Positions 26,850 through 42,810 of a DNA stretch of 64,000 bases are shown in pieces. The DNA is from Microcaldota archaeon (GTDB lineage: Archaea; Micrarchaeota; Micrarchaeia; Micrarchaeales; Micrarchaeaceae), in assembly GCA_021816895.1 (NCBI GenBank), contig JAKAWW010000001.1, positions 619,067-683,066 on the forward strand. The letters run 5' to 3'. A model generated the notes under the pieces. The model saw only the letters and a list, made by a program, of their open reading frames with translations, had not been told where the DNA came from and made no database searches. The stretch's first letter is position 1. Each line of letters starts with the position of its first letter. Both the position numbers and the translations under genes were made by a program.

Positions 26850-29216
26850 TCACGCGAAAGAGTCTCCCGGTGCGTCTGCGTCAACAAGCTTTACACTCCC
26901 TGATGACATGTATATCTTGAGCTGCTCAGCCTCTGGCGTGAATGATGTTAGGATAGACTCCCTGAACTCCTCGAGCCTCATTGAATTAAGGAATGCTATG
27001 TAAGTTGTCTGGTTGCCGTATACTGGCATGCGCAGGAACTTGCTTGTCTTTGAGTATATTACTATGTATGCGCGATCGCCATGTATCGTGGCCACTATAT
27101 CGGCGAGATTGCTGGCATCTATGTCTGTGAACATGTATGCGTGCGTGACCAGGTAGAGCCTTATCTTCTTGAATGTCGCAAGGTATTCTATGTCGTGGCC
27201 GCTCTTCTGTATCCATTCTGCCGGAGCGTAAAGGTTGTCAGCACCTACAAGATAGCCTTTTACCACAAGCTGGTCTACTATCGAATCTATGTTGCTGTAT
27301 GTAACCCCTATGGGCATGTTGTTGTACCTCATGTTAGAGCTTATTGCAGAGCGCAGCTCGCTCTTCGTGAGCGGCATGAACTTCCAGTGGTAACGCACAT
27401 TCAGCTTGTCAAACTGGCTCAGCACTTCCCTGGCGCTGACTTTTATGTCAATTTTTTTCTGCTGCGGCAGGCTTGGCACATCTATGTAGAATTCATCCCT
27501 ATTCGGGGCCTTGACCATCGTCACCATTAACAATACCACAACCACTACTATTACAAGCTCTATGTACTGCTTGTTTACCACTATTTTCGGAGCAGCATGA
27601 ACGGTTGTATATGAGAATGATGAAGAGAGAGCTGACAGGACAAACTTCATTGTGCCATAAATCTGTGGCGTTCCTGCAGGAAGGCTGTAGTTTACAGTTC
27701 CGTTCTGCAGTATGCCGCTGCTTTTGTACGCGCCGTTTAGCGTTATCGTGTAGTTTACGCCAGATATCGGCAGCCCTTTGGAATACAGGGAAAGCCTGTA
27801 TTTGTTTGCTGAGAAGTTTGCGCTGACGAGCGAAATGTTCACCTGCGCTACATCGAACAATGAAGCAGCATATAGGTTGCCCGAATAGCCCTGCAGCTCT
27901 CCGATGTACCTGCCTGGAGGCAGATTGAATGGGATGTATTTTATGAATGTGAAATTGCCGTACGCCTGAGAGAACGGCAGAGGTATGGAGTACACACTAG
28001 ACATGTTCATATTGTAGATGGTTATGTGAGGCTGTATTGATATTGGCAGCGTTGAATTAGTGAATATGGTCATCGTTACAGGCACTGTATGCGTTGGGAT
28101 GACCTCGCTCTGCATGCTTATGGTGCCGTTAATGGTATGGCCAGGCGAGAAATAGATGTAAAGGTAGCGTGTCTTTCTGCCTGCGCTGCTTGAAAAGTTT
28201 GACGTTATTGTCATGATGCCGAAGCTGTTCTTGAGGATCTGAAGGTTGCTTATGGTAGGCGTTAGCGTAGAATTGTCAAGCACTATGCCGATTGAGCCGC
28301 TTGAATTCAGCGAAGTGGTATTAAGGCTGAGCCCGCCGCTGGCAAGCCTTGGTATCCAGAATGCAGAGTCTATGGCCTTTGCTATGTCAGAAGCAGCCTC
28401 TTGCGGTGACTTCCATGATTGCAATGTGTTCGAAAAAGCAATCATTACCCCCGGGCCTATATATTCATATGTCAGCGGGCCGTACGTGAATCCTCCTGTG
28501 AACGAGAAGGTAGTGGAGTTGAAATAAAACGGGCTCTTGCCCTTGTACAGCGATGGCTGGGATTCTAGGTAGCCAGGCATTATGTTGTCAGGCACTATTA
28601 TAGAACCCGGAAGCAGCATCCTGGAGAAGTTGTCCCCTATGTATATGACAATGTCCTGCTTTGACATCAATATGCTAAGAGGCGTCTCGCTTGTGCTGGC
28701 ATTGATAGGCTCAATCAGGGAGCTCGGCATAAGGCCTGTTGGTACAATCAGTATGGAGTAGTTCTCTATATTGTCCACATTTGCAATTGAAACATTTGAT
28801 ATGTTGGAAAGGTTATAGAAGTTGTATGACTTCAAATCGCTTGAAAGCAGTGCAGTCAGTTGCGGCATGCTTGCGCACTGGTAGCATTCGTTGCTGGTAT
28901 TGAGCATGTAGACTTTCAGCGGCATCGGGTCCATTAGTATGGTAGCGTTGAAAGAGATGCTCGTCGCATTTACGGCGTTGTAATTTACCAGCGCATAAGG
29001 GAAGAGCTCCCTTGAATCGTTATACTGCAGCAGGCCCTGTCCTGCTATGAAGCCGCTTACGCTTGGCTCGAGGAGCTTTGATGGCACCACATGCGAGCTC
29101 ACATGGGAAAGAAGGGAGCTAAGATATGCGAATATAGCTACAACAGCGATGATCAGCACGACGATTATTATTACTGCGATCTTAAGGACCATGGAATGCC
29201 TGGCTGATGCCACATA
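26850..29216 (-). CDS. Large surface protein with N-terminal anchor and cytoplasmic C-terminal domain
   Basis: About 788 residues. One TM near the N-terminus (KIAVIIIVVLIIAVVAIFAY), an extracytoplasmic region of about 500 residues rich in N-glycosylation sequons, a second TM (YIELVIVVVVVLLMVTMV), then about 210 cytoplasmic residues with a winged-helix-like segment (TYSNIDSIVDQLVVKGYLVG). It is the last gene of the secretion-like cluster. GTG at 29216 follows GGGTGAT and the stop of the small gene upstream; a TTG at 29255 would overlap that gene. Function unknown. Confidence 0.72.
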   Translation of the reverse strand, partial: YVASARHSMVLKIAVIIIVVLIIAVVAIFAYLSSLLSHVSSHVVPSKLLEPSVSGFIAGQGLLQYNDSRELFPYALVNYNAVNATSISFNATILMDPMPLKVYMLNTSNECYQCASMPQLTALLSSDLKSYNFYNLSNISNVSIANVDNIENYSILIVPTGLMPSSLIEPINASTSETPLSILMSKQDIVIYIGDNFSRMLLPGSIIVPDNIMPGYLESQPSLYKGKSPFYFNSTTFSFTGGFTYGPLTYEYIGPGVMIAFSNTLQSWKSPQEAASDIAKAIDSAFWIPRLASGGLSLNTTSLNSSGSIGIVLDNSTLTPTISNLQILKNSFGIMTITSNFSSSAGRKTRYLYIYFSPGHTINGTISMQSEVIPTHTVPVTMTIFTNSTLPISIQPHITIYNMNMSSVYSIPLPFSQAYGNFTFIKYIPFNLPPGRYIGELQGYSGNLYAASLFDVAQVNISLVSANFSANKYRLSLYSKGLPISGVNYTITLNGAYKSSGILQNGTVNYSLPAGTPQIYGTMKFVLSALSSSFSYTTVHAAPKIVVNKQYIELVIVVVVVLLMVTMVKAPNRDEFYIDVPSLPQQKKIDIKVSAREVLSQFDKLNVRYHWKFMPLTKSELRSAISSNMRYNNMPIGVTYSNIDSIVDQLVVKGYLVGADNLYAPAEWIQKSGHDIEYLATFKKIRLYLVTHAYMFTDIDASNLADIVATIHGDRAYIVIYSKTSKFLRMPVYGNQTTYIAFLNSMRLEEFRESILTSFTPEAEQLKIYMSSGSVKLVDADAPGDSFA

Positions 29217-29217
29217 A

Positions 29218-29379
29218 TCACCCTTGCTGCTCGCCTGACTTGCCACCTTGGCCAAACAGCTTCATGAATAAAGAGGTAAACGCCTTCGACACCACGTTCT
29301 GCTCCCCTTCTACCTTCTTGGCTATCGCATATACACGGATGTACCGTATGCGCTTGTTTATCTTTATCACATATTTCAT
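29218..29379 (-). CDS. Small basic protein in the secretion-like cluster
   Basis: 53 residues, begins MKYVIKINKRIRYIRVYAIA and is strongly basic in its first half, with a gly/gln-rich tail. ATG at 29379 follows AAGGAC and lies 5 nt after the stop of the upstream gene; its stop overlaps the ribosome site of the next gene. This tight packing argues for a real coupled gene. No family recognised. Confidence 0.5.
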   Translation of the reverse strand: MKYVIKINKRIRYIRVYAIAKKVEGEQNVVSKAFTSLFMKLFGQGGKSGEQQG

Positions 29380-29384
29380 GTCCT

Positions 29385-30122
29385 TCAGCCTTTCAGCGTT
29401 ATGTAGCCCTGGGAGACCATCTTGTTCAGTATCTGCTCGACCCTAGTAGGGGATATCTTGTAGTTCTGGGCAAACTCGTTTATGTCTATTGTGCTGTCGT
29501 GAGCCTCAATCCAGTCTTCTACCATCACCATAAGCGACTCATCGGAGTACGCTTCAAGAACACTTAGCCTGCCATGAAGCTCTTTGTTCTCCGCGCTGAG
29601 CTGCTGCGCCTGAACGGTCAGGCTCTTGTTCGAAGCGGCAAGCTCGAGATTCAGCCTTTTTAGCTCCCTGTAGTCATTGAACAGTGAATCGTAATTATTG
29701 AAAAGCGAGCTATAGCTCTGCGACATGGAATTCAGCATGTCGTCTATCGCGGAATCTGTGTATTGGAACAGCTCGGCATTGTCAGCGATATAAAGGTCAG
29801 ACACCAGCGAGAGTATGCTTAGCAGTACCTTAAGCACATAGAGCTTCCTTATCTTGGGGCTTGAATCCATCGGTATTGTATAGTCGATGGTAATGCTGCT
29901 CTTTGAAAAGGTAATTATTATGAACAGGAATGGCCTCTTCTGTATGTCGCGGCTTTCAATCCTTGCGATTGAAAGCTCGTCGATGGTGTTCTTTACTGAA
30001 AATACCTGCAGCGTTGATATCCTGCTCGCCATGGCGTCAAAAGTCCCTATAAGGGTGCCTTTTAGCACCAGCTGCTCCGCCTTTGGTTCCACGACATTTT
30101 GGTTCTCTTCTGCCAATGACAC
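29385..30122 (-). CDS. Coiled-coil protein with C-terminal winged helix, secretion-like cluster
   Basis: 245 residues. A beta-rich N-terminal domain (about 15-90), a long coiled coil (DYRELKRLNLELAASNKSLT continuing to about 185) and a winged helix at the end (IDINEFAQNYKISPTRVEQI, LNKMVSQGYITLKG). No TM. A TATA-like element near 30184-30192 suggests its own promoter inside the cluster. It may be a cytoplasmic scaffold or regulator of the machine. GTG start. Confidence 0.68.
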   Translation of the reverse strand: MSLAEENQNVVEPKAEQLVLKGTLIGTFDAMASRISTLQVFSVKNTIDELSIARIESRDIQKRPFLFIIITFSKSSITIDYTIPMDSSPKIRKLYVLKVLLSILSLVSDLYIADNAELFQYTDSAIDDMLNSMSQSYSSLFNNYDSLFNDYRELKRLNLELAASNKSLTVQAQQLSAENKELHGRLSVLEAYSDESLMVMVEDWIEAHDSTIDINEFAQNYKISPTRVEQILNKMVSQGYITLKG

Positions 30123-30258
30123 ACCTTTTGTTAGATCCTGCCTAGGTTTGCGAAAACCGTAGCACAGAGAGGTTCAAACCCGATATAATATAAAAGATAA
30201 AAGAATAATAATAAATATGGTAGCCATTATGGCAGGCGCTTGCTTCGCTTCATGGTAT

Positions 30259-30681
30259 TTATGCTTTCTTTGCTCGCCTTGAGATCGTTTTCGCCTGACT
30301 TGCAGCGTGATGCACCTTTGCGCTTTGAGGGATTTGAGGCAGTTTCAATGCAGGCATGTAGCTGAGCTGCGCCAAGAGGTACATGAACACTATTATTATA
30401 GCACCGTACAGTATTGCGCGGAGCACATGCCCGCCTGAGAATACTACGAGCATCGCCGCGAACAGCACGCCTATTGCGAGGTAGGTCAACTCCTTGCGCA
30501 CGTAGCTGTCGCGTGCCTTTTTGTATTTTGGGTAGCACTCCTTGCACACCACGAGGCGGTAGCCTTTCTCGCTCCTTGTGATATTGCGCTTTATCCACCT
30601 TATGGTATTTATTATGAAATCTTCCTTCACTTCTATGCCGTCCTTTTCAAGGCCGCAGATTATGCATCTTGTTTCTTCCAT
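30259..30681 (-). CDS. Zinc-ribbon protein with two TM segments, secretion-like cluster
   Basis: 140 residues. Two CxxC pairs near the N-terminus (CIICGLEKDG and VVCKECYPKYKK) should bind one zinc on the cytoplasmic side; two TM helices follow (about 68-83 and 89-107) and a basic C-terminal tail (SQAKTISRRAKKA). The start is 5 nt after the stop of the upstream 105-residue gene. No known T4SS component matches it. Confidence 0.68.
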   Translation of the reverse strand: MEETRCIICGLEKDGIEVKEDFIINTIRWIKRNITRSEKGYRLVVCKECYPKYKKARDSYVRKELTYLAIGVLFAAMLVVFSGGHVLRAILYGAIIIVFMYLLAQLSYMPALKLPQIPQSAKVHHAASQAKTISRRAKKA

Positions 30682-30685
30682 TGCA

Positions 30686-30994
30686 TCAGCTGAAATCGAG
30701 CGTTACATTGTAAACCCTGCCGGCTTCGGCAGATATCTTCTGCATGTCCACCATCTCGAACACGCTTGCTATGGTTATGTCGTCCATTCCTATGCGCCTC
30801 AGCACGTTCGCTATCTGGTCCCTTTCCAAGCCCATCTTCTCCAGCTGCGAAACGAACGCCGCCGAGTTGAAATGCCTGTGGCTTTTCTCCATTGTTGACA
30901 ACAGTGCCTCTATGCCCTTGTTGTCCACATGCATTGCCGTCAATATGCGCCTTAGCACAGTGCGCTGCACAGTGAATGTGTTCTGGCTAGCCAT
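30686..30994 (-). CDS. Small helical protein, secretion-like cluster
   Basis: 102 residues from ATG 30994. Soluble and helical, with two similar units (HVDNKGIEALLSTMEKSHRH and GMDDITIASVFEMVDMQKIS). A comparable segment (SIVNIVSFLKSLSIDDLLIA) ends the ATPase encoded just upstream, so it may be a detached paralog of the ATPase C-terminal domain. AGGTG 7 nt upstream supports the start, which overlaps the ATPase stop codon. Confidence 0.62.
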   Translation of the reverse strand: MASQNTFTVQRTVLRRILTAMHVDNKGIEALLSTMEKSHRHFNSAAFVSQLEKMGLERDQIANVLRRIGMDDITIASVFEMVDMQKISAEAGRVYNVTLDFS

Positions 30995-32504
30995 TCTCAA
31001 CACCTGAAGATGAAATGATTCTGGCTATGAGCAGGTCGTCTATGCTCAAGCTCTTCAAGAATGACACTATATTAACTATGCTTGTGCCAGATTTTGACAG
31101 CTCCCTTATGAAGTCGAGCATTTTTATCCCGCGGCTCTGAGCATCCATTTCGGCGAAAAGCGAGTCTATGGAATTGCCACTGACGTTGTACTCTATAAGC
31201 TTCCCTTTCAGCTCATCCATCTCGAACTCAAAATCCTTGGGCAGCACGTTTGCGGAGAGCTCGCTTTGCGTCAGCACGTCGGACATGTCTATTGTGTAGA
31301 TGTACAGTGGCTCCTCTCCCTGTATGCGCTCGAGCAGGAAGGTCTCAGGGAATCTTATTGCGGTCTGGAATGCCATCTCCACCGCAGCCTGGCCCACGCC
31401 GAACTTCGTTATTTCAGATCTTATGAAGCTCGAGAAGCTCATCGAACTCTGCAGGTAGTTGAGGAACTTCTCAAATTTTACCCTGAGAACAAACGTAGTG
31501 CCCACGTTCGAGAATATGGCCTCGTTTATGTCTGTAGGGTTCTGCGATGCCACAATGAGCCCGAACTGGTATTTTCGCCCTTCCCTCACTATCATGACAG
31601 CGTCGCTCCTGTCGTCTCCTGCGATCTTCCACGCTTCGTCTAGGACAACCAGCGCCTTGAGCCCTTTGGTCTCGCTCCATCCCTCGCTGCGCATGCGCTC
31701 CTTGAGCGACTGAAGTATGAACAGCGCGGCAAGCGCCCTGAAGCGCTCGTCAGGCAGCGACGAAAGATCTATGTCAACAAGCCCTGACGTGGTAAGCTTG
31801 CCTAGGTCTATGGTGCTCTGCCTTGCGAAATAGTCCTCGCCTTCCCGCGCGAACTGCCTAAGCCTGTATATGGCATTCTCGAGCTCTGCCGGGTATTCGT
31901 ATGTGCCTTCCTGCAGCTTTTCTTGGAGCAGCGATATGACGTCTTTCAGCGTGGGCGCCTGCTTGCCCTCAGGAGCCTTCTCATAGACAATGAAGCCGCT
32001 GTTTGTATACGCCTGCTCTATCGCTTCTTCTGTGATGCGCCTCTGCTCTGGGTAGTCACCTATGTCTGTAAGTATCTCCAATGAGGTTATTATCTGCTTT
32101 GTCCTGTCAAGGGGCTTCATTCCGCTCAAATCCATTATGTTTAGGAACGCGCCCTTTCCAAGGGAAACCACTATGCCTGCGCTCTGGTTCACCCACGCCT
32201 TGTATTCTCCGGCCCAGTCTATTATTACAGCGTTAGTATTCCATACGTAGCTTGCCCTTATCAGGAAGGTCTTCACGAAATAGCTCTTGCCTGCGCCAGT
32301 TATGCCTACAACAGCTATGTGCGGGTTCGTCAGGTTTATGTAAGACCATGTAAACGGCACCTTGAATATTTTTGTGGTGCCTATGTATATCGACTGGAAA
32401 GGATCACTCAGCAGCACTGTTGCAGGAGGCTCCGGCGGCCTTGAGAGGAATGACCGCTTTGCCACCTCGCTGGTTGTTATGTGCTGCAATTTCAGAAGGG
32501 TCAT
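30987..32504 (-). CDS. VirB4/HerA-type secretion ATPase
   Basis: 505 residues. Walker A VGITGAGKSY (66-75), an all-alpha insertion (about 125-235), Walker B ALVVLDEAWK (284-293), an arginine-finger region MIVREGRKYQFGL and the sensor ASQNPTD (319-325). This is the FtsK-HerA class, closest in layout to VirB4/CedB. It lacks a TM anchor and the VirB4 N-terminal domain, which two separate upstream genes seem to supply. It would power pilus assembly or DNA transport at the inner side of the membrane. Confidence 0.87.
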   Translation of the reverse strand: MTLLKLQHITTSEVAKRSFLSRPPEPPATVLLSDPFQSIYIGTTKIFKVPFTWSYINLTNPHIAVVGITGAGKSYFVKTFLIRASYVWNTNAVIIDWAGEYKAWVNQSAGIVVSLGKGAFLNIMDLSGMKPLDRTKQIITSLEILTDIGDYPEQRRITEEAIEQAYTNSGFIVYEKAPEGKQAPTLKDVISLLQEKLQEGTYEYPAELENAIYRLRQFAREGEDYFARQSTIDLGKLTTSGLVDIDLSSLPDERFRALAALFILQSLKERMRSEGWSETKGLKALVVLDEAWKIAGDDRSDAVMIVREGRKYQFGLIVASQNPTDINEAIFSNVGTTFVLRVKFEKFLNYLQSSMSFSSFIRSEITKFGVGQAAVEMAFQTAIRFPETFLLERIQGEEPLYIYTIDMSDVLTQSELSANVLPKDFEFEMDELKGKLIEYNVSGNSIDSLFAEMDAQSRGIKMLDFIRELSKSGTSIVNIVSFLKSLSIDDLLIARIISSSGVENG

Positions 32505-32539
32505 CAGCTCAACTCAATACCATTAGCGCGTAAAAATTA

Positions 32540-33373
32540 TTATTTCTGCTGGTCAAAGTATGCCGCGGCTTCAGCGAACGACGTGGGCACTGCGAAGTTG
32601 AACTTGAACAGCGTGTAAAGCTCCCTGCCGCGGACCTGCGTCAGGTCTACGTCAAACCCACTTAGCGCTATCTGAAGCGCGCGCACCTGCGAAGCGAGCG
32701 CGTCGGTAGCTGCCTTCTCGCTTATGCCTATTGCAGATGTTTCTATGTACATGAGCGAGGCAAGCGGCTTTTCGCCTGCTGATATCCTGTCTATCTTCGC
32801 CTGAAGCGAGCTTATCTTCCTCTGTATGTCGGTTACTGTTACCTCGTTGGCATTGCTCTGTATCGCCCTGGAAAGCTGGAACTCTTGGTAGGAGCGCTTT
32901 CCTTCCAGCTCGTCGCGCACCTGCTGCACGTCAAGCCCAGCTGCGAACACGTGGTACTTGAATGGAAAGCTTATGCTTATTAGAGCACGCTCCCAGAGCT
33001 CCGGCGCCGCAGCGATTCTGTCATTATCGCTCACAACTTCAGAAGTCTCAAGCTTGAAAACATACGCATATAGATTTGCAGTTATGAAGCCGGTAGCATA
33101 ATAGAGGCCGTTGACTTCTTTTATTACGGCATCCTGGGTCTTGTTTATTTTGTAATTTGCCGAAGGCTGGAACGTTATGCCCATCACGCTCGTGAATATA
33201 GGGAAGAGTATGAAGTCGGCCCAGTTCAGCATCAGCACAACGGCAACGCCGAGCAGCAATAGCACAAGTATCAATATTGCAACTGCACCGTGGCCTATGC
33301 TGCCTATCACGGAGAACGCTATAATGTAGAACAGGAGGGTGAATACAAGGTACATTATTGATTCCTCATCCAT
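32540..33373 (-). CDS. Two-TM protein resembling a detached VirB3/VirB4 N-terminal part (copy 2)
   Basis: 277 residues: two TM segments (about 7-30 and 34-52) then a soluble domain. Features such as ISFPFKYHVFAAGLDVQQVR, KRSYQEFQLSRAI and AATDALASQVRALQIALSGF follow the VirB4/TrbE N-terminal domain (TM-derived VirB3 part plus alpha/beta domain before the ATPase). It is one base from its paralog upstream and 36 nt from the ATPase gene. The VirB4 relation is my inference from pattern and position. Confidence 0.62.
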   Translation of the reverse strand: MDEESIMYLVFTLLFYIIAFSVIGSIGHGAVAILILVLLLLGVAVVLMLNWADFILFPIFTSVMGITFQPSANYKINKTQDAVIKEVNGLYYATGFITANLYAYVFKLETSEVVSDNDRIAAAPELWERALISISFPFKYHVFAAGLDVQQVRDELEGKRSYQEFQLSRAIQSNANEVTVTDIQRKISSLQAKIDRISAGEKPLASLMYIETSAIGISEKAATDALASQVRALQIALSGFDVDLTQVRGRELYTLFKFNFAVPTSFAEAAAYFDQQK

Positions 33374-34210
33374 TCATATCACCTCCTCCTGTATATTCTT
33401 TGTTATCTGCTCGCTTACTGTTGAATAAGGTATAAGGAATTCCGGCTCTATGAATTTCAGGATGTCGTTGCCTATTACAAGGTTAGGCGAGACCCCAAGC
33501 GTTGCACCTATGCCAGACATTATTTCCATGGCCTTTTGGTGCACTGCATTCACCGCCTCGTATTCCTTTGTGCCTTTTGCGGAGATTGTCGCGAATGTAG
33601 CTAGCTCCAAAGACATGTTTTTGCTCACATTGTCAAGCATCTTCTTCCACATCGCCAGGGCGCCGTGCACCTTGCTTATTTCTCCTTGGGGCGCGCCTTC
33701 TTGCGTAAGCTGCGCTTCCTTATTTTCCATTGTACTTATGGTGTCGCGCAATTGCTGTATATACGAATCCTTGTTCATCACATACAGCTGCGATGTTATT
33801 CGCATGGGGTAGCTTGTTATGCTGGAAAGCCTGCCTACCTGAGCCGCGAAGTTAAGCTTCTCCTCACCGCTCATCTCCGTGCTTGAAACATAAAGGGGTA
33901 TGTTTACGATAACTGTAGCGACAAAGTCCTCGCCTTCCTTGTGCAGTATGGCGTCATTTGACGAGGAAAGCCAATATGCATTCTCACTGCTAAGCACGAG
34001 GTGCCTTGAATGCTGCTGGAACATTGGTATTATGAGATACGTGTAATAGCGCGAGGCGAATGCAAGTATGCTGAAGGTTATGCCTACCAAAAGAAGTATG
34101 ATCTTTGCAATGCCAAGGAGTATGTTTGAATTTGGTATTGAAGCCGCAGCCGCTAGGAATACGAATGCAATTGCAAGGAACACTACTAATATGAGAAATT
34201 TTGCCTGCAT
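33374..34210 (-). CDS. Two-TM protein resembling a detached VirB3/VirB4 N-terminal part (copy 1)
   Basis: 278 residues with the same layout as its neighbour: two TM segments (about 5-25 and 34-58), a beta-rich soluble domain and helical stretches (MRITSQLYVMNKDSYIQQLR, and later KKMLDNVSKNMSLELATFAT). A TATA box (TTTATTTATAAATTT, 34226-34240) sits about 24 nt before ATG 34210, so this gene and those below it have an internal promoter. GTG 34219 is an alternative start. Confidence 0.62.
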   Translation of the reverse strand: MQAKFLILVVFLAIAFVFLAAAASIPNSNILLGIAKIILLLVGITFSILAFASRYYTYLIIPMFQQHSRHLVLSSENAYWLSSSNDAILHKEGEDFVATVIVNIPLYVSSTEMSGEEKLNFAAQVGRLSSITSYPMRITSQLYVMNKDSYIQQLRDTISTMENKEAQLTQEGAPQGEISKVHGALAMWKKMLDNVSKNMSLELATFATISAKGTKEYEAVNAVHQKAMEIMSGIGATLGVSPNLVIGNDILKFIEPEFLIPYSTVSEQITKNIQEEVI

Positions 34211-34225
34211 TTGCAACACGTTTCT

Positions 34226-34240
34226 AAATTTATAAATAAA
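34226..34240 (-). promoter_or_regulatory. Internal TATA box before the VirB4-like genes
   Basis: TTTATTTATAAATTT on the minus strand, centred about 24 nt before ATG 34210. It splits the cluster into a channel/pilin part and an ATPase part. Confidence 0.5.
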
Positions 34241-34250
34241 TGAAATACAT

Positions 34251-35513
34251 TTATATAAATCCTCTCATTCTGCCGCCCATTCTGCTTGCTCCGCCTATCA
34301 GGTTTGCCACCTGCACTATAAAAGCGTATGTTACAGAAGTTATGAGCACTGGATAGAATAATATCAGGAGCCACAATGAGCTCATCGCGCTGCCTGCCGA
34401 GGACACTGCTAGCGTCAGCGGGCTTGTCGGCGAAAGCGAATTCTGCACCGAGGAAGTGCCGCCGAACCTTGTGATCTGAGCTGACACGCCTGCAAGCTCA
34501 TGCAATAGGTTTGGCGCTGTGAAGTAATAGGCTATGGCGAACATGGAAGGCGCGACGATATAAAAGCCCAATGCCACTGCTATGAGCATGCCGCCGAATG
34601 CCCTTGTAGGGAAGAACGCCCTGAATAGCACCCCAGGTATGAGGAATACGGGTATTGACGCAACAGAGAAAAACACTATAAGGTAGTACTGCCCGTACAA
34701 GGCGAGCACCCCGTCGGAAAGCAGCCCTGCAAGGTTAAGCGCCGGGTCCATGAAGTACACAATCAGGTATGCGTAATAGGTATTGAGTATTGTCTGCACT
34801 ATCGAAACACTTGCCTGCTCGACCTGGAGCGTTACCTGGAATGAAGTATATTCGGCATCGTGCATGTATACGCTTGTAAGACCGGTTATGACGCCTTCTG
34901 CATTGCCTATTGTATTGCCTATCAGGTTGAATGCGGTTGCATACGGGTTTATGCTGCCTACAAGAAGCCCTGGCGTTACGCCGAACATTACCGCCGATAC
35001 ATACAGGAACAAGCCAACGATTATGGCGCTGGCTGTCGCCTCGTAAAGCTCGCCTACGCCAAAGTTCTTGATGCGCTCGCTGTGCGAGGCTATGCCAAGC
35101 ATTATTATTATAGCTGCAACAGAGAAGGAGAGAAGGACTACCAGAAGCGCCAATGGCAGGTATGGCTTCCATTCCATGTAAATCTGCTCATTTATCGGGC
35201 AGTACCATGGCTCGTATGCCGATATGCTCTTGGCAAGGCCTGGCGGCAGGAGCCCGCACGCATTCTGCGCCGAACTGGAGTAGCATTCCACGCCAGGAGT
35301 GCTGAGCGGCAGGCCTGATGGCGTGGTGCCTGACTGAGCCTGGCAGACACCAACCTGGCTCATGGTATAGCCAGCAGGGCATGTATAGCCGGACTGGTAT
35401 GCGTTGCAAGCCGGATACGGCAGATACGTCTGCGCAGCCGGCAGGTGCGCGACGGCAAGCAGAGTCAAAAGTGCCACAAAGGAAAGCAGAGCAATACGTT
35501 TAGGCCTGTTCAT
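34251..35513 (-). CDS. Polytopic membrane protein, VirB6/CedA-like paralog 1
   Basis: 420 residues. Signal-like N-terminus, a cysteine-rich extracytoplasmic segment (YPACNAYQSGYTCPAGYTMS) of about 90 residues, then six to seven TM helices. The family motif is RAFFPTRAFGGMLIAVALGF. The plan (amphipathic loop with R-x3-[FW]-TR-xx-GG between TM helices) recurs in five neighbours. By position and topology it resembles the channel proteins VirB6/CedA; homology is not proven. GAGGTG 5 nt before ATG. Confidence 0.66.
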   Translation of the reverse strand: MNRPKRIALLSFVALLTLLAVAHLPAAQTYLPYPACNAYQSGYTCPAGYTMSQVGVCQAQSGTTPSGLPLSTPGVECYSSSAQNACGLLPPGLAKSISAYEPWYCPINEQIYMEWKPYLPLALLVVLLSFSVAAIIIMLGIASHSERIKNFGVGELYEATASAIIVGLFLYVSAVMFGVTPGLLVGSINPYATAFNLIGNTIGNAEGVITGLTSVYMHDAEYTSFQVTLQVEQASVSIVQTILNTYYAYLIVYFMDPALNLAGLLSDGVLALYGQYYLIVFFSVASIPVFLIPGVLFRAFFPTRAFGGMLIAVALGFYIVAPSMFAIAYYFTAPNLLHELAGVSAQITRFGGTSSVQNSLSPTSPLTLAVSSAGSAMSSLWLLILFYPVLITSVTYAFIVQVANLIGGASRMGGRMRGFI

Positions 35514-35522
35514 TTTTGCACC

Positions 35523-36611
35523 TCATATTATGTTTGACAGCAAAGACATGAAATCCATGCGCTCGCCTATCGACCTTGAAAAATCAACTATGAACGCGTC
35601 AACTATGGTGAAATTCAGGAATGGTATGAATGTGAGCCCGGCAAGTATGTAGCCGAACACCTTGACGCCACCAGTAAGAAGCGACAGGTTGACACCAGCT
35701 CCTGTTGCATACGTGAATACCATAGATAGGACAGTGCCAAGCATGTACACCTGCCCGCATGCTGAAGTACCGAGGCACGTTGAAACTATGTTAGTGTCTA
35801 TGAAGCCGTATGTGATTGAGGTCAACAGAGGGAACACAAGCCCGAGGCCTAGGCCGAACGCTATCATGGCCCCGCCAAATGTCCTTGTAAACCCGAATGT
35901 CCTCATCACGAGCCCGAGAGTGAGGAATACCGAAAGGAATAGCAGCGAGCCAGAGAGTATCAAAAGCTGCAGCTGGCTTATCAGCAGTGCAAACATTATA
36001 CCAGAATACACAACAGGAAGGAGATTGTCGATCTCTCCGGGCAGCAGCGAGGTGGCAAAACCCACGTTAAGGTTTTCTTCAGGATAGTCGGGTATGCCGA
36101 TTTTTATAGACAATGTCGGCACTATTCCAGTCAGATATGACACGTAATATGCAAATTCAGCCATGCTGCCAGCTACGCCATTGAAAAGCGAAAGGTCGCA
36201 TACTGACAGCTGGAATATGTCTGTAGCGCTGGTGCAGCCTTGCTGAAGCACGCTGAAGCCGAGCACGTCAACGCCTGATCCCTGAGGCACGATGTTAAGC
36301 CCCTTTGGGCCGAATGCTGCCTGCGGGCTGATGAAGAACAGGTATGAAAACGCGCCAAACACAAGTATCATTACTATCGAAAGGAATGCCTCATATATCT
36401 GCATGCGGGCCCATGCCTTTGCGTTAGCGCTCATTATTATATTTGCAAGCATGTACACGATTGCAGCTACCAGTATTACTACAAGCACAGCCACAAATGC
36501 TATCGGAAGCCATGTCAATGGTGTATATAAAAGCCCCAGCAACGGCATGCTTATGGGCAGCGCTGCAGAGAGATGCGCAAGGGCAAGCATTGCGATGACC
36601 AACATGACCAT
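35523..36611 (-). CDS. Polytopic membrane protein, VirB6/CedA-like paralog 2
   Basis: 362 residues, about seven TM helices. Family motif RTFGFTRTFGGAMIAFGLGL. It has an extracytoplasmic loop with two cysteines (LQQGCTSATDIFQLSVCDLS) and another pair at STCLGTSACGQ, likely disulfides. Its ATG overlaps the stop of the upstream paralog (TAATG), so the two are translationally coupled. Confidence 0.65.
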   Translation of the reverse strand: MVMLVIAMLALAHLSAALPISMPLLGLLYTPLTWLPIAFVAVLVVILVAAIVYMLANIIMSANAKAWARMQIYEAFLSIVMILVFGAFSYLFFISPQAAFGPKGLNIVPQGSGVDVLGFSVLQQGCTSATDIFQLSVCDLSLFNGVAGSMAEFAYYVSYLTGIVPTLSIKIGIPDYPEENLNVGFATSLLPGEIDNLLPVVYSGIMFALLISQLQLLILSGSLLFLSVFLTLGLVMRTFGFTRTFGGAMIAFGLGLGLVFPLLTSITYGFIDTNIVSTCLGTSACGQVYMLGTVLSMVFTYATGAGVNLSLLTGGVKVFGYILAGLTFIPFLNFTIVDAFIVDFSRSIGERMDFMSLLSNII

Positions 36612-37678
36612 TACAACAACCTCTTCAGCGTTTTCCCGGAGCTAAGGCTAGGCGCGCCAAGCAGGTCGCCGAGCACCTCCATGAAATTATATGATATTAT
36701 AAAGGAAAGCACAACACCTATTACATAGAACATGGAGGGCTCCAGCACAGAGCGTATAAAAGCAATGAAGATGCCGCTAGAAGAGCTCTCCTCGCTTTGT
36801 ATGAGCGCGGTGTCGCTCTGCAAGCTGCCCGATGCTGTAGTGAGGGTTCCTAATACTGAGCTCAGCGATGTGCTGCTGCCCGATACGCTGCTTACCGAGA
36901 ATGCTGAGGTGAATATGTAGATCATGATAGGCAGCACTATGAAGAAGCCGACAAACAGACCTATGAATGCGCCTCCTGCAGCCCTTGTCCATGGTATGGT
37001 GCGCAGCACTACGCCAGCGAAGAAGAACAGTGGGAAGAGCTTGTACGCTATGAGTAACACGAACATGGTAGCAAGGAGCATGCCGAAGAACATCGCACCT
37101 ATATTGATCATCATCTTAGCTACGCTGTTGGCAACCAAGAGACCAGAGAACGGTTTTAAGGCTATGCCGAAGTATACAGGTTGTATCTGAATGCTTACAG
37201 AAGTGATTAGCGATATCACCATCTCATAGCCCATTAACCCAAAGGTAGGCAACACCATTCCGAGAGATGTGCTGTAGAGCGCCTTGCAGTCATACATGTA
37301 TATGCCGGTACTGAATGTTCCCTTGCTTATTGATAGGAAGTTGCTTGGGGTTGACACAGAGATTACTGTGAACGAGCCCACGAAAATAAACACTATTATA
37401 AGGGTAATAATCACTTCGCCCATCTCGCTCTTCGCAAACCTGGTGAGCTTGTCCACCTTTATCACGCTGCCTATCGCATAGAGCACGCCGGCTATCATGA
37501 GCATTATGAGCATCAGGAGCAGCGAGATGGCAAGCAGGTTTGTCGCAGAAGTGCCTCCATGAAGCACGTTCCCGCCTGTGAAGAGGTTGCTGCAGAAACC
37601 CGCTGCGTCGGCGCCTGCCATGCCAGGCACCGCTAGCACCAAAGTGGCAAAGAGCAGCAATAACATAATCTTGCGCAT
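36611..37678 (-). CDS. Polytopic membrane protein, VirB6/CedA-like paralog 3
   Basis: 355 residues: signal peptide (KIMLLLLFATLVLAVPGMAG), then about six TM helices. Family motif RTIPWTRAAGGAFIGLFVGF. A long serine/threonine-rich extracytoplasmic loop (SSVSGSSTSLSSVLGTLTTA region) precedes the last TM. Start overlaps the upstream stop as TAATG, as in the next junction. Confidence 0.65.
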   Translation of the reverse strand: MRKIMLLLLFATLVLAVPGMAGADAAGFCSNLFTGGNVLHGGTSATNLLAISLLLMLIMLMIAGVLYAIGSVIKVDKLTRFAKSEMGEVIITLIIVFIFVGSFTVISVSTPSNFLSISKGTFSTGIYMYDCKALYSTSLGMVLPTFGLMGYEMVISLITSVSIQIQPVYFGIALKPFSGLLVANSVAKMMINIGAMFFGMLLATMFVLLIAYKLFPLFFFAGVVLRTIPWTRAAGGAFIGLFVGFFIVLPIMIYIFTSAFSVSSVSGSSTSLSSVLGTLTTASGSLQSDTALIQSEESSSSGIFIAFIRSVLEPSMFYVIGVVLSFIISYNFMEVLGDLLGAPSLSSGKTLKRLL

Positions 37679-39075
37679 TACACCAACCTAGCCAAGCCCG
37701 CAAGCTCTGTATCACCACCGAGCAGCGAGGATATGCCTATTATCGCAGATATTGTAATTAAAAGGTTTATCAGTGGCAGGAAATAAGCAGTAATGCCCAT
37801 TATGCCGTAAATCTGGAAGAGCATGTACGTAGCGGGCATTATGTTATTAGGCGAGCAGGAGTAAGGGAGATAGAAATATGGGGCCACGTTGCCGCTCGCG
37901 GCGGCAGAATATAAGCCAGCTCCAACGCTGTAGAAAGGCACCAGTAGCACAGCTATGTCACCGGCTTCACCATCGACAAGGTTGTTGGCCGGAGGGAGGC
38001 ATCCAAAATGGTTGAGCGCCTTCTGCACGCTCGGCATCACGAAGAAGTTGAGCACATAAGTGCTTGTAGAGGATGGCACGCCGCTTGATGGTATCGTAGT
38101 CAATGTGCTGTAGCCGAAAGCGGAATTGTAGTTGGCTGAGCTTGTAGACAAAGCAAGGTATTCCATTGAGTAGACAGCAGGCAGAAAGATCAGGAATCCC
38201 AATGCCACTGCTATAAGAAGCCCGCCAAGCCTTCTGGTAAAGAACACAGAGCGCAATATGAGCCCGAAGAATATCAGTAACGGCCATATGTATAGCGCTA
38301 TCATGTTGATTGAAAGCTGCGCAACGAAGAATTCTACAGCAGTAGTCATCAATGTGCCTAATGGAGTAAGCAGCTTGTACACCATTGAATAGCCATCGTA
38401 TGGAGTGAATTGCACGTGCAGCAGCAGATCCGGCACGAGCAATTCGCCATACAGCGGTATCACGCAAGGGCTCACCCAGCCAGGAAATACGCACACGTTA
38501 ACTTGCGGCGACAAATCGGAAAGGAATCCAACCCATGCGTCGAACAGGAATGCGCCGTTGTAATCTACAACCGACTGGTTCGTAAGGTTTGCTACTACAA
38601 CGGTTGTCGCAGCAAGCGGATAATCGAGCTGCTCTGTAAGGCTAGGGTTCGAACCAAGGCTTACCATGCTGCACAGGCCATTTAATTTCGATGAAGGATT
38701 GCCCGAAAGATAAGACTCGAGTATACCTAGCGAATATGAATTGCTTGAGCTCTCATACTGGGAGATGTCATTGCACATGGTCGAAACAGCGTTCGTGTTC
38801 AAAAGCTTTGTGCCGTTCAATATGGAGATGTATGTCGATGCTATTACATATACAGAGCCCAGCACTATCGCTATGAGCACGGCGGTGCCTATGAGCTGGT
38901 AGAATTCGTCTCTTGCACCTGCCTTGACGGTGGAATTGCCCAATAGCGAGCCCACGATGTACCACACGGCTATGAAAGCTGAATCAAGCAGCAGGGCGAG
39001 GAACACAAGCGGCAGAAGCATGTTCTTGGCTGACGTGAAGCCGGTCTGGAACAGGAATGTGATTATCGGTATCAT
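37678..39075 (-). CDS. Polytopic membrane protein, VirB6/CedA-like paralog 4
   Basis: 465 residues, the longest of the six. About seven TM helices, a 150-residue extracytoplasmic region after TM2 with cysteines (CNDISQ, LCSMVS, CVFPGWVSPC), and the family motif RSVFFTRRLGGLLIAVALGF. A second extracytoplasmic loop has further cysteines (FGCLPP, YSCSPN). Starts 9 nt after the upstream gene. Confidence 0.65.
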   Translation of the reverse strand: MIPIITFLFQTGFTSAKNMLLPLVFLALLLDSAFIAVWYIVGSLLGNSTVKAGARDEFYQLIGTAVLIAIVLGSVYVIASTYISILNGTKLLNTNAVSTMCNDISQYESSSNSYSLGILESYLSGNPSSKLNGLCSMVSLGSNPSLTEQLDYPLAATTVVVANLTNQSVVDYNGAFLFDAWVGFLSDLSPQVNVCVFPGWVSPCVIPLYGELLVPDLLLHVQFTPYDGYSMVYKLLTPLGTLMTTAVEFFVAQLSINMIALYIWPLLIFFGLILRSVFFTRRLGGLLIAVALGFLIFLPAVYSMEYLALSTSSANYNSAFGYSTLTTIPSSGVPSSTSTYVLNFFVMPSVQKALNHFGCLPPANNLVDGEAGDIAVLLVPFYSVGAGLYSAAASGNVAPYFYLPYSCSPNNIMPATYMLFQIYGIMGITAYFLPLINLLITISAIIGISSLLGGDTELAGLARLV

Positions 39076-39083
39076 ATACGCAC

Positions 39084-40250
39084 CTACAGGTTGCCCCAGA
39101 ATGTCGAAGCGCCCTCTACGCCGCTGTTAAGCGCCTTCGTCAAGCCCATCGCAAGGCCTGCCGTGACCCCTATGTTTATTGCAAACATGAATATGCCTAT
39201 GAACAGGAATTTTGCCATCTCCCAAACAATTGCGCTTGTAGTGAACGGAGCTGTCGCCGCACTGCTAACCAGAGAGCCCAGCTCCGACAGCGGATTAAGG
39301 TTTATAGAGGCACTGCTGAGAAATGATTCCAGGTAGGATGGCGCTGTCGCCGAGTTGCCGCTCAAGAGGCTGCCTGACGGCAGTGATGAGAACAGGGTAC
39401 TTGTGGAATATGAAGTATATGTGTTCGCAAATTGAAGGTACTTATACGAGGGGTTGCTTGCTGAAAATATCCAGCTTACGGCATAGCCGTCAAAGCCCAC
39501 CATGAGTGGATATATCATATATGCAGCTATTGCTATGGCAAGGAACGCGTTTGCAGTGTTCCTCAGGTTCCCTCCTGCAAAGGAGAGGGAGCGCATTACC
39601 AGCGCAACTGGCAGCACCACGAGGAATGCAGTGTATTCGAGCAGAGGCAGCATAAGCCATTGCAGGTAAAGCGCGCCTATTACGGTTATCAGCAGCATTG
39701 AGAATATAGAGAGGTATACATCGGCAAGCACCTTGAATACTTTGCCCAGCTCAAACTTCGGGCCAAACGAAACAGAAATTGGTAGTGATCCGCCGCCGAA
39801 GCTTGGCGATAGCGGCGCGTAGCCGTTGAGTATCTGCCCGAAGCTGACATCCAATATGGTGCTCTCTATGCTGTATTGCATCGACGTGAAGTATATTTTG
39901 GAGAGAAGGCCTATACCCGTGTTTGTTGTGAGGTTTCCTATGTAGTAATCTGCGTACTGGAACGGGCTCAGCGACGATCCCGTAACGGTCCTGCTCATTG
40001 CTGCGGATATGCTGCACGCGGTGCTCGCCATCCCTAGCAGGATCATTATTATTATGGCGCTGAGGAAAGCCTGGGTAAGCTCTGTCCTCACTGCGCTGGT
40101 GACCTTGCCGCTGAACCTTGACGGCATGATTCTCGAAAGCGCAAGCACCAGGGCGCCGATGAGCAGGCTTACCAGTATGACGAGCAGGTTTATGCTCAAC
40201 CAGTTGTTCACGTACGCCGTGCCGCCCAGTATCGCGCATGTGTTTACCAT
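39084..40250 (-). CDS. Polytopic membrane protein, VirB6/CedA-like paralog 5 (divergent)
   Basis: 388 residues, about seven TM helices. The shared motif is degenerate: RSLSFAGGNLRNTANAFLAI keeps R-x3-F and the following hydrophobic helix but has lost the TR-xx-GG core. The topology and the position between paralogs 4 and 6 still place it in the group. It begins 7 nt after the upstream stop. Confidence 0.6.
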   Translation of the reverse strand: MVNTCAILGGTAYVNNWLSINLLVILVSLLIGALVLALSRIMPSRFSGKVTSAVRTELTQAFLSAIIIMILLGMASTACSISAAMSRTVTGSSLSPFQYADYYIGNLTTNTGIGLLSKIYFTSMQYSIESTILDVSFGQILNGYAPLSPSFGGGSLPISVSFGPKFELGKVFKVLADVYLSIFSMLLITVIGALYLQWLMLPLLEYTAFLVVLPVALVMRSLSFAGGNLRNTANAFLAIAIAAYMIYPLMVGFDGYAVSWIFSASNPSYKYLQFANTYTSYSTSTLFSSLPSGSLLSGNSATAPSYLESFLSSASINLNPLSELGSLVSSAATAPFTTSAIVWEMAKFLFIGIFMFAINIGVTAGLAMGLTKALNSGVEGASTFWGNL

Positions 40251-40256
40251 ATAGAT

Positions 40257-41543
40257 TCACGAAAGCTTCATTTTACCCACGCCCATCCTGCTTATGCTCA
40301 TTGTGCCGCCGAGCATTGTGGCTATCTGATTTACCACTGCCAAGCCTATCACCATGTCGAATATAAACAGGAACAACTGCAACAGTAGATAGCTTGTCTG
40401 ATTCAGCACAACATTCAAAATCTCGACTATGTTGCTGGAAAGCGGATCGTAAAAGCCTGCGCTAGACCCTAGGGCAAAGCCGTTATTCATATCATTTACT
40501 ATGTTGGGATAGCCTTGCACCACAGGGCTGCCAAAGAGGAATGCTATTATAAGAGGCCCTTCGCCAAGGCCGTTAAAGAAGCTTTGCGCGTTGTAGACCA
40601 TCTGGCCGAACAGGCCTGATGTTGCAGGCTGGGTTGTCGCTGCAGGCTGGTTTGGCAGTATATTTGACAGGTAGTTTGAAATAGGCAGGTTGAAGCCTAC
40701 CAGGAGCACAGGGTATACAAGCGATGCGCCTATTCCTAGCGCTATGAACGTGCCGCCTATGCCGCGTGTGAAGGGCATTGCCCTCAATATTATGCCTACA
40801 GGCAGAAGGCCTCCTAGCCCGAGCGCTATTATGACGCTTATGAAGTCGTACTGGAATTGGAACAGATACAGCGTTGGAAATATTATCATGGTAAACATGT
40901 CCTTTACAAATGAGAATACCGCAGTAGGCGTGATGGTTTCTATGTAGCTGCTGACGTAGATGTTTGCTATAGAGCCGGACTGCAATGTCAGTATGGGCTC
41001 AGGAATAGGAGGTATAATAATAGGCAGCGGGAACCATGTGGCCAGGCTGATGCTTTTCAAAGCTGCGATGCCCTGCGACACGCCGAGCATTGTTGCAAAA
41101 TCAACGTATGCCTGGTTGAGCCCGTATGCAAGGTACGAGGTCGCGCCGCTGCAAAGTCCTTCGAGGTTTGTGCTCAGGCTGCTGAACATAGATGAGGTGC
41201 TGCCGCCCTGCAGCGAAGCGGCATTGCCAACGAGCATGTCGGCAATAGCGCTAGCTATTATGATTGAGGAAAACACCACCGCTATTATCAGTATGCTCTT
41301 TGAAACCTCCCACAGCTCTGTCTTATACCAGCCCTTCAGGGCGTTATAGTTGAGCACCTCGCCGGCCATGTATGAGACTGCAATGAATAGGAATGATATT
41401 GCGATGCCTATTGCTGCAAGCCCTATGAATGTAGAGAAGTTGCTTGCGCTCAGTGCCACCGTGCAAGAATAGGTGCTTGAAGCTGAAGCCATGCCTGCAA
41501 GAACAGGCAGCAGAAGCGCTATCAGAGCGACGACACGGCGCAT
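40257..41543 (-). CDS. Polytopic membrane protein, VirB6/CedA-like paralog 6
   Basis: 428 residues: signal peptide (VVALIALLLPVLAGMASASS), about seven TM helices, family motif RAMPFTRGIGGTFIALGIGA. First gene of the channel-like series in transcription order. A TATA box (GCTATAAATAC, 41565-41575) lies about 25 nt before the ATG, so the six paralogs probably start from a leaderless mRNA here. Confidence 0.66.
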   Translation of the reverse strand: MRRVVALIALLLPVLAGMASASSTYSCTVALSASNFSTFIGLAAIGIAISFLFIAVSYMAGEVLNYNALKGWYKTELWEVSKSILIIAVVFSSIIIASAIADMLVGNAASLQGGSTSSMFSSLSTNLEGLCSGATSYLAYGLNQAYVDFATMLGVSQGIAALKSISLATWFPLPIIIPPIPEPILTLQSGSIANIYVSSYIETITPTAVFSFVKDMFTMIIFPTLYLFQFQYDFISVIIALGLGGLLPVGIILRAMPFTRGIGGTFIALGIGASLVYPVLLVGFNLPISNYLSNILPNQPAATTQPATSGLFGQMVYNAQSFFNGLGEGPLIIAFLFGSPVVQGYPNIVNDMNNGFALGSSAGFYDPLSSNIVEILNVVLNQTSYLLLQLFLFIFDMVIGLAVVNQIATMLGGTMSISRMGVGKMKLS

Positions 41544-41564
41544 ACTAGGATATTTGATAACAAA

Positions 41565-41575
41565 GTATTTATAGC
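41565..41575 (-). promoter_or_regulatory. TATA box of the six-paralog operon
   Basis: GCTATAAATAC on the minus strand, 22 nt from its end to ATG 41543. It is the clearest promoter within the cluster. Confidence 0.6.
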
Positions 41576-41597
41576 TGACGAAAACGCTGACATCAAA

Positions 41598-42239
41598 TCA
41601 GCGCTTTAGAAGCCTGAAGCGCTTCATGTACATCTCGCTCTGCAGCACCACAAGGAAAGGAAGTATGAAAAGGGAGTTGAATACCAGCAGCGCATACCTT
41701 GAATATACTGTGCCTGAAGCTGCGATGAACACGAAGTCGAAGAACGTGATGAGCACTATTGCAAGGAACAGCCACAGCAAGAAGTAGTCGAAGCGCCTGA
41801 AGAAAAACGAAACGCTTGCCTTCAATGACCTTAGGATCCTGTTTTCGTCTATCACTATGGAAGCGGGCGCATAGAACACAAACGGGGTAATTGCGAGTAT
41901 TGCCAGGCTTGTTATTATGCCCGAATAACCAGTGCCGAAGCTCAGCATGTCGGCAAGCACTATCACGGCGCTGAGCAGGAGCAGCACTATGAACACCTTG
42001 CTCGTATACTTTTCAAGGCCCTGGATGACTTCTCTTGTTATCTTCCTTTGGACGCGGCTATGCTTCACCACAACGTTAATCGCAACAATTGCAAAGCTGA
42101 GGAAGAGAAGCGAGAAGAAAAGTGCCACAATAATGACTGCCGAGGAAAGAAGGCTCATGTTAGAGAATATGCTCGCTGTGCGCAGGAATATGCCTCCAGC
42201 ATCATTATAAGTTGGAAAGGCGGCGAAGGCAGGTATCAT
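41598..42239 (-). CDS. Membrane protein, unknown function; true start probably upstream
   Basis: 213 residues from ATG 42239 with about four TM helices. The frame stays open for 53 more codons (to 42398) and encodes a credible membrane segment there (FFFPLLFGFAWAKA, then SYAWSTYAANIKLILSFSLA), yet has no ATG, GTG or TTG. Either a non-standard start or a frameshift in the 5' part is possible. It lies between the pilin and the channel-like genes on the same strand. Basic helix KHSRVQRKITREVIQGLEKY is cytoplasmic. Confidence 0.6.
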   Translation of the reverse strand: MIPAFAAFPTYNDAGGIFLRTASIFSNMSLLSSAVIIVALFFSLLFLSFAIVAINVVVKHSRVQRKITREVIQGLEKYTSKVFIVLLLLSAVIVLADMLSFGTGYSGIITSLAILAITPFVFYAPASIVIDENRILRSLKASVSFFFRRFDYFLLWLFLAIVLITFFDFVFIAASGTVYSRYALLVFNSLFILPFLVVLQSEMYMKRFRLLKR

Positions 42240-42419
42240 GAATGCGATTATGAAGGCAAGCGAAAATGACAGTATCAGCTTTATGTTAGCCGCATAAGTG
42301 GACCATGCATATGATACAACATTGGTTATGCCAACACCTGCCGCTTTTGCCCAAGCAAAGCCAAATAATAAAGGGAAGAAAAAGATAAAAGCCTTACATT
42401 ATTGTGGTATGTGCATTGG

Positions 42420-42794
42420 TTAGGAGGCTCCGCACGCTGCACTGATGTTTGAATTGCCCGTTATTACGGTAAGTATGTAAGGCGCAGCTACTGCAATTAT
42501 TACCCCGATTACGCCGCCGAGGATCATGCCCATGCCATAGCCCTGCACAGAGCCTTTTGTGCTCCCGGGGAGCACGTGAGCTCCAGCATACATTGCGCCT
42601 CCCAATATTATTAGCACAAGGCCCAGTATAAATATGACACTTTTGACAGCGAGGTATAGGGTGCATATCGCGTTGACGGCGTTTGATGCCTGCCCGTACG
42701 CCATTGAAACGAATCCCAGCAGCAACAGCAACGAGATCGCGGGGCCTACAATACGCCCTGAGTTGAGCAATTTGCCGAACCATGATATATTCAT
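42420..42794 (-). CDS. VirB2/CedA1-like pilin
   Basis: 124 residues. A signal peptide with cleavage likely after AYG (SLLLLLGFVSMAYG), then a mature protein of about 90 residues made of two hydrophobic helices joined by a short basic loop: SVIFILGLVLIILGGAMYAG, AHVLPGSTKGSVQGYGMG, MILGGVIGVIIAVAAPYIL. This is the VirB2/TrbC pilin plan. Two cysteines (AIC near the mature N-terminus, AAC near the C-terminus) could pair. ATG 42794 has GTGGT 5 nt upstream; GTG 42803 is the alternative. First gene of the cluster. Confidence 0.82.
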   Translation of the reverse strand: MNISWFGKLLNSGRIVGPAISLLLLLGFVSMAYGQASNAVNAICTLYLAVKSVIFILGLVLIILGGAMYAGAHVLPGSTKGSVQGYGMGMILGGVIGVIIAVAAPYILTVITGNSNISAACGAS

Positions 42795-42810
42795 ATGAAC
42801 CACTTCGCCT

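Follow-up and report, generated by a model that had tools for sequence, protein, structure and literature searches.

A fifteen-gene, type IV secretion-related locus with six ordered channel paralogues in Micrarchaeota

What kind of machine is encoded by a run of 15 genes flanked by those for topoisomerase VI subunit B and for threonyl-tRNA synthetase in the chromosome of a member of the Micrarchaeota, a phylum of tiny archaea that grow on other archaea? The genes (g01 to g15, Table 1) are all read in one direction, on the minus strand from position 42803 down to 26850 of the window, which is the whole stretch of 64,000 nucleotides analysed (bases 619067-683066 of a complete, single-contig chromosome of 928,770 bp). 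The initial annotation had described 14 co-directional genes of an apparatus related to type IV secretion systems (T4SSs) and to the Ced system. All of these genes are present and co-directional, but the number is 15; the additional gene is g12, which encodes 105 amino acids (aa), overlaps the end of the ATPase gene and was probably missed earlier. The relationship to T4SS and Ced is supported by the ATPase, the pilin, the fold of g10 and the gene neighbourhood. On balance, the cluster more likely than not encodes a chromosomal, vertically inherited, T4SS-derived envelope machine, with a proposed role in contact-dependent attachment to and transfer with other cells, above all an archaeal host.

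The cluster was followed through 196 Micrarchaeota genomes (families, loci and genomes are denoted f, L and G). The g11 ATPase was detected in 185 of them at E <= 1e-5, including 12 with a weak match only (the ATPase of a compact locus described below or another ATPase, or an incomplete genome), and a close orthologue is present in about 173 of the 196. An identical 15-gene order was found in 20 independent loci of the 60 read at length, whereas other loci of f1, f2 and f11 differ mainly in the number of pilins, in g02 or through contig ends. The core g10-g11-(g12)-g13-g14-g15 is kept in other families of the class. Chance is excluded by this repetition of the exact order and by the spread of the core across the class. 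The neighbourhood is kept in dozens of relatives, one of them the genome of Candidatus (Ca.) Micrarchaeum harzensis (989,838 bp, same family, L036). The distribution is one of vertical inheritance with some losses, not of a recent mobile element. When genome contigs were searched with the ATPase, nearly all of the best 80 loci were labelled Micrarchaeota. Two loci, L154 labelled Woesearchaeota and L200 labelled 'bacterium', encode the ATPase with 40-43% of residues identical to the query, and both are probably mislabelled or misbinned Micrarchaeota. The g11 matches of G008, G042, G067, G141 and G192 contain 1-3 in-frame stop codons, which may represent assembly errors or decay.

The gene g11 encodes the motor and carries the Walker A (GITGAGKS) and Walker B (VVLDEAW) motifs noted in the initial annotation. 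In Pfam, g11 is matched by DUF87, AAA_10 and the TraG P-loop, with DUF87/HerA as the best match, whereas the NCBIfam models for CedD (E 7.9e-20, 71 bits), CedB (3.9e-17, 62 bits) and a VirB4-like conjugation ATPase (2.5e-16, 59 bits) all rank above HerA (4.5e-13, 48 bits). Judged by sequence, g11 is a relative rather than a member of the Ced ATPases, because all scores lie far under the equivalog cut-offs (62-71 bits for CedB and CedD against curated cut-offs of 600-700). All 21 ATPase members match the CedB and CedD models, curated VirB4 models match all or 20 of the 21 (best E 5e-21), and g11 matches the VirB4 structure 4ag5 in PDB at E 3.8e-9. Orthology of g11 with HerA was not borne out by the curated HerA models, which score below those of CedD, CedB and VirB4 and far under their cut-offs. 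The ATPase previously called VirB4/HerA-type is therefore nearest to CedD, CedB and VirB4, not to HerA alone. The gene g12 corresponds to the C-terminus of g11 (hhalign probability 99.6%, E 2e-23).

The gene g10 is located immediately 5' of the ATPase gene in 58 of 60 loci, and g09 is its paralogue (hhalign probability 99.8%, E 4e-29). When an AlphaFold model of g10 (predicted local distance difference test, pLDDT, 81) was compared with PDB folds, TrwK/VirB4 of R388 occupied ranks 1-4 and 9, with probabilities of 0.99-1.0 for the first four. This match is suggestive, and g10 and g11 look like one VirB4 split over two genes. The earlier description of two proteins resembling the N-terminal half of VirB4 (VirB4-N) agrees with this likeness in fold of the g10 model and with the paralogy of g09 and g10, each with two transmembrane (TM) helices; at the sequence level, neither gave a profile match to VirB4 or VirB3.

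The gene g01 matches the Pfam family TrbC at E 6.6e-4, itself under the Pfam cut-off, and among 12 relatives seven match T4SS_pilin and six match TrbC. Matches to PF04956/PF18895 cover half of the pilin family, and PF18895 exceeds its curated cut-off in 34 of the 196 genomes (best E 1.6e-12). Profile comparison with TrwL of R388 gave a probability of 59% (E 9e-5). As far as sequence can tell, a VirB2-like two-helix pilin is present; the signal peptide and both helices were recovered, and the pilin of the initial annotation can be retained. The mature part has a conserved cysteine near each end, one preceding helix 1 and the other following helix 2. The two tend to go together: both are found in 35 pilins, the C-terminal one only in six and neither in seven (counts that ignore kinship), and the pair might staple the pilin ends. 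A second, unlinked protein of 280 aa ends in a pilin domain that shares 74% identity with g01, and it has no Pfam match; it may serve this system as a tip adhesin or as a decorated pilin. The pilin family is expanded in G042 (contig C8, ~17-25 kb, 57 kb; 10 matches in the genome), where one open frame of 633 aa contains four pilin matches. Pilins also occur within frames of 693, 679 and 561 aa in G042 and other genomes.

The genes of the array g03 to g08 encode proteins with 6-7 predicted TM helices each, and all six are paralogues by pairwise profile comparison (hhalign probabilities 94.6-99.1%). Exactly six channel genes occur in 44 of 46 loci read and in all five arrays from f3, f6, f14 and f21 (49/51 in total), even where the array lies far from the ATPase (L114-L116, L118, L119). 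In a tree of 149 channel proteins, array position requires only nine changes, against a mean of 94 and a minimum of 83 when positions were shuffled within arrays. Each of positions 1, 3 and 5 makes up one monophyletic group across all the sampled families; each of positions 2, 4 and 6 is divided between two pure clades, that of f1/f2 and that of the rest, with long branches. The deep branches are weakly supported, yet each of the nine clades contains a single position. Because the six paralogues stayed distinct by position, one hetero-oligomeric complex is suggested, and the six subunits are best explained as its non-interchangeable parts. Canonical VirB6 is a homo-pentamer (PMC12857230), and a hetero-oligomer has been proposed for the Ced paralogues CedA and CedE (PMC11868833). 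The N-terminal part of the channels resembles the pilin (A1 against A4, probability 85%, E 6e-6; position-2 profile, g04, against pilin, 92%, E 7e-7; unrelated permease control, <1%). The same pilin-channel resemblance is reported for CedA/CedA1 and VirB6/VirB2 (PMC9905601). The six polytopic channel-like proteins of the initial annotation thus stand as six polytopic paralogues, but homology with VirB6 was not detected by profile, hidden Markov model (HMM) or fold, and at the sequence level the similarity of pilin and channel is the sole hint of it.

The genes with their order, conservation and paralogy, and the families of the ATPase and the pilin, are established computationally, and the fold suggests VirB4-N; from these parts we infer the assembly of the machine, its hetero-oligomeric channel, and the direction and cargo of transport. 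The paralogues g10 and g09 would be membrane-anchored, VirB4-N-like subunits that dock a separate g11 ATPase ring, which would power the building of a VirB2-like pilus from g01 and its paralogues, movement of a substrate, or both. The substrate path would be a membrane complex of the six different, non-interchangeable channel subunits. The ectodomain of g15 and the adhesin-like pilin fusion would mediate extracellular contact, g13 and g14 may be cytosolic or membrane couplers, and the cargo could be DNA, protein or other. A more specific proposal is put forward tentatively: a trans-envelope channel of six different paralogues, possibly a six-part ring matching a hexameric motor, would replace the homo-pentameric VirB6 and would be used with VirB2-like pili and the large ectodomain protein to attach to and exchange material with host archaea.

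Table 1. Features of the locus and its surroundings in the window
Feature	Position	Strand	Description
g01	42420..42803	-	VirB2-like pilin, 127 aa; signal peptide (..AYG/QA), two hydrophobic helices
g02	41598..42239	-	Polytopic accessory protein, 213 aa, ~5 TM; no Pfam match
g03	40257..41543	-	Channel paralogue, array position 1; position-1 clade in tree
g04	39084..40250	-	Channel paralogue, array position 2; pilin-like N-terminal part
g05	37678..39075	-	Channel paralogue, array position 3
g06	36611..37678	-	Channel paralogue, array position 4; 1-base TAATG overlap at each end
g07	35523..36611	-	Channel paralogue, array position 5; AlphaFold pLDDT 81, predicted template modelling score (pTM) 0.77
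g08	34251..35513	-	Channel paralogue, array position 6
g09	33374..34219	-	2 TM + VirB4-N-like domain; g10 paralogue
g10	32540..33373	-	2 TM + VirB4-N-like domain (fold match)
g11	30987..32504	-	VirB4/CedB/CedD-type ATPase, 505 aa, without VirB4 N-terminal domain
g12	30686..31003	-	105 aa, stand-alone copy of g11 C-terminal domain
g13	30259..30681	-	CxxC...CxxC (zinc-ribbon-like) + 2 TM; conserved across class
g14	29385..30122	-	Cytosolic coiled-coil + C-terminal winged helix, 245 aa; conserved across class
g15	26850..29255	-	801 aa: N-terminal TM, ~500-aa ectodomain, second TM, ~200-aa cytosolic C-terminus
Unlinked pilin fusion	51383..52225	-	280 aa: signal peptide, PKD/Ig-looking domain (by eye), C-terminal pilin domain
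160-aa open reading frame	42855..43337	-	Just 5' of pilin; excluded from system

A role in host contact is consistent with what is known of Ca. M. harzensis, which is cultured together with Ca. Scheffleriplasma hospitalis and shows thin filaments at host contact sites by cryo-electron tomography (cryo-ET) (PMC8975820), and which draws metabolites from its host and relies on it for parts of its lipid synthesis. Saccharibacteria cannot grow as epibionts without a T4SS that has pilins and neither relaxase nor coupling protein (PMC10633639). Several observations weigh against an attachment or transfer machine with a VirB6-like channel. The channels gave profile probabilities of only 0.1-1.5% with nine VirB6 proteins (R388 and other plasmids), the TrbL HMM gave only four sub-threshold matches over the 196 genomes, and the channel fold (g07 model) has no PDB match (best E 1.1). 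The fold match of g10 is weak (E 0.007 to 0.06; template modelling score 0.34-0.39). The system is absent from f10, f13, f15, f22 and several f17 genomes, and it is not essential in every member because these lineages do without it. The authors who described the filaments lean towards a host origin for them (PMC8975820). Of the four TrbL matches, the sole one in the genome of the window (C1:418094) lies outside the 15-gene cluster. Pfam found nothing significant in 53 channel members, and NCBIfam gave no Ced match for the pilin or the channels. A TrbL-annotated protein, the top match of the channel in the viral Foldseek search, was discounted as evidence (E 0.86).

Among the nearest described systems are the Ced and Ted systems of Thermoproteota. 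Like this locus, they are chromosomal and lack relaxase and VirD4; the models nearest to the ATPase are CedB, CedD and VirB4, and both have a VirB2-like pilin and a polytopic channel with a pilin-like N-terminus, a likeness drawn for CedA and CedA1 from published descriptions and not from their sequences. The VirB4 N-terminal domain, which in Sulfolobales is divided between CedB and CedD (PMC11868833), appears to be split over proteins here too. However, Ced and Ted have one or two channels, whereas the Micrarchaeota locus, found in DPANN, has six channel paralogues in a fixed order, VirB4-N as a separate membrane protein in two versions, and the extra genes g12 to g15, including that of the large ectodomain protein.

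Import or exchange of DNA for genome repair in the manner of Ced and Ted, among Micrarchaeota cells or with the host as source, is possible but rather unlikely; the six channels would then be an elaboration particular to this lineage. The best matches of g11 are the Ced ATPases, neither relaxase (PF03432) nor VirD4 was detected, as in Ced, and both the splitting of VirB4-N and a hetero-oligomer of CedA paralogues have been reported or proposed for Ced (PMC11868833). However, the same genome contains a compact operon (G000, C1:359472-366882; 7473-14883 of L111) that fits the Ced/Ted parts list far better and leaves the 15-gene locus another job. The compact operon encodes a pilin, one channel, VirB4-N, an ATPase, a coiled-coil protein, a 2-TM and a 3-TM protein and, at its end, a second, divergent, CedD-like ATPase of 740 aa, and it recurs in Ca. 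M. harzensis, G011 (952,257 bp) and G017 (L112, L113, L122). The pilin, channel, VirB4-N and ATPase families are common to both loci, each time within one operon, whereas the compact locus has only one channel and lacks g02, g12, g13 and g15. Because of its better fit, the compact locus is probably the real Ced counterpart in this genome and the 15-gene locus a different, expanded machine. No recombination or repair genes were found within the 15-gene operon. The initial annotation had proposed DNA uptake, exchange or contact with a host; since the compact locus is the probable Ced counterpart, DNA uptake becomes only one of several possible functions for the 15-gene locus.

Secretion of protein effectors into the host, as by the T4SSs of intracellular bacteria and as has been suggested for Saccharibacteria, is unlikely. 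Tandem VirB6-like copies beside VirB4 are a hallmark of the Rickettsiales T4SS (Rvh, sodB-virB), in which 4-5 virB6 paralogues occur in host-dependent cells (PMC7648143), and Saccharibacteria require on their host a T4SS devoid of coupling protein and relaxase (PMC10633639). However, a coupling protein of the VirD4 type, usual in T4SSs that secrete effectors, was undetected here. The Rickettsiales system differs in its smaller copy number and in the diderm VirB8-10, VirB11 and VirD4 parts that it contains. A relation of the channels to VirB6 was not detected with a profile of plasmid, not Rickettsiales, VirB6. The T4SSs of Saccharibacteria (Patescibacteria) are likewise found in ultrasmall epibionts and widespread across their phylum, with VirB4 and VirB2-like pilins often in arrays, and relaxase and coupling protein are absent from most clusters; they differ in an unsplit VirB4, in PrgI/VirB3 and VirB6, in descent from the bacterial mating-pair formation class MPF-FATA and in having no six-channel array.

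Alternatively, g11 might be a HerA-type motor that serves an unrelated complex in the membrane, for envelope biogenesis, division, the S-layer or lipid traffic, and the pilin-like protein an unrelated small membrane protein. This reading would accord with the best Pfam match of g11, the failure to find VirB6 homology, the persistence of the core g10-g15 in families whose channel array is elsewhere and a weak CdvB/ESCRT-III likeness of g14, but is improbable given that curated models place CedD, CedB and VirB4 above HerA, that the pilin family passes the Pfam cut-off in 34 genomes, that the fold of g10 points to VirB4 and that a pilin stands beside g10 even in families without an adjacent array (L052, L089, L090, L092, L094). 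The picture that the initial annotation had named as fatal to its proposal, an ATPase matching only HerA, an unrelated pilin and no conserved neighbourhood, was not found.

A conjugative, self-transmissible T4SS was rejected on the absence of PF02534 and PF03432, the chromosomal gene flanks and the vertical conservation. As the initial annotation had also noted, no VirD4 coupling protein (PF02534) and no relaxase of family PF03432 were found, here genome-wide, other relaxase classes not having been searched. Ced, Ted and the Saccharibacterial T4SS also have no recognisable relaxases (PMC9905601, PMC10633639). A mobile-element origin was rejected as no relative was found in IMG/VR viral contigs. 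Plasmid matches are distant T4SS-type ATPases only (22-28% identity), and in the Sulfolobus conjugative plasmids pNOB8 and pKEF9, also rejected as relatives, the ATPases alone match.

In the literature searched, coverage of which is incomplete, no publication was found that treats Micrarchaeota together with VirB6, or DPANN together with CedB, and no T4SS architecture with a channel of six paralogues in fixed order was found described. Judged by titles and partial text, papers on Micrarchaeota and VirB4 apparently do not describe the system. In a late-2025 review of T4SSs, the section on archaea covers only Sulfolobus and Thermococcus plasmids. Giant VirB4-domain proteins with a proposed role in secretion are reported for Nanohaloarchaea (PMC10266531), in a different arrangement. 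The proteins of the contact structures by which DPANN attach to and feed on hosts are described as unidentified (e.g. PMC11420986). The present locus gives candidate contact genes for one whole phylum, including the cultured Ca. M. harzensis with its published cryo-ET, and brings DPANN, alongside Thermoproteota, into the range of domesticated T4SS-like machines, a parallel to the T4SS that is essential in Patescibacteria.

Neighbouring genes of the cluster are close or overlapping, and 1-base TAATG overlaps occur twice, at g05-g06 and g06-g07, in agreement with the tight coupling noted earlier. TATA-like boxes are located upstream of g01 and, inside the cluster, of g03, g09 and g14. The three internal boxes, also noted earlier, are plausible because boxes recur at these genes in relatives (17/36, 15/37 and 12/36, respectively) above the level of genes inside tight blocks (0-4 of ~36-38 relatives; g11 7/38, g02 6/34).

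Among the accessory genes, g02 is kept between the pilin and channel genes in f1 and f2. The gene g15 is conserved across the class, and its product has no Pfam match and no significant PDB match. The C-terminal winged helix of g14 shows weak similarity to ESCRT-III/CdvB (PDB 2xvc, E 0.005; NCBIfam CdvB, E 0.017). The 160-aa open reading frame next to the pilin gene has no family match and no relative among neighbouring loci.

Two large channel arrays each appear to be present in f3 (L118, L231) and f6 (L114, L115), and a second VirB4-N/ATPase core was found in f3 (L232). The six-channel arrays of L231, L114 and L118 adjoin genes for proteins of 1,300-1,430 aa with 1-3 predicted TM helices, and some of the channel copies in these arrays reach 680-1,126 aa.

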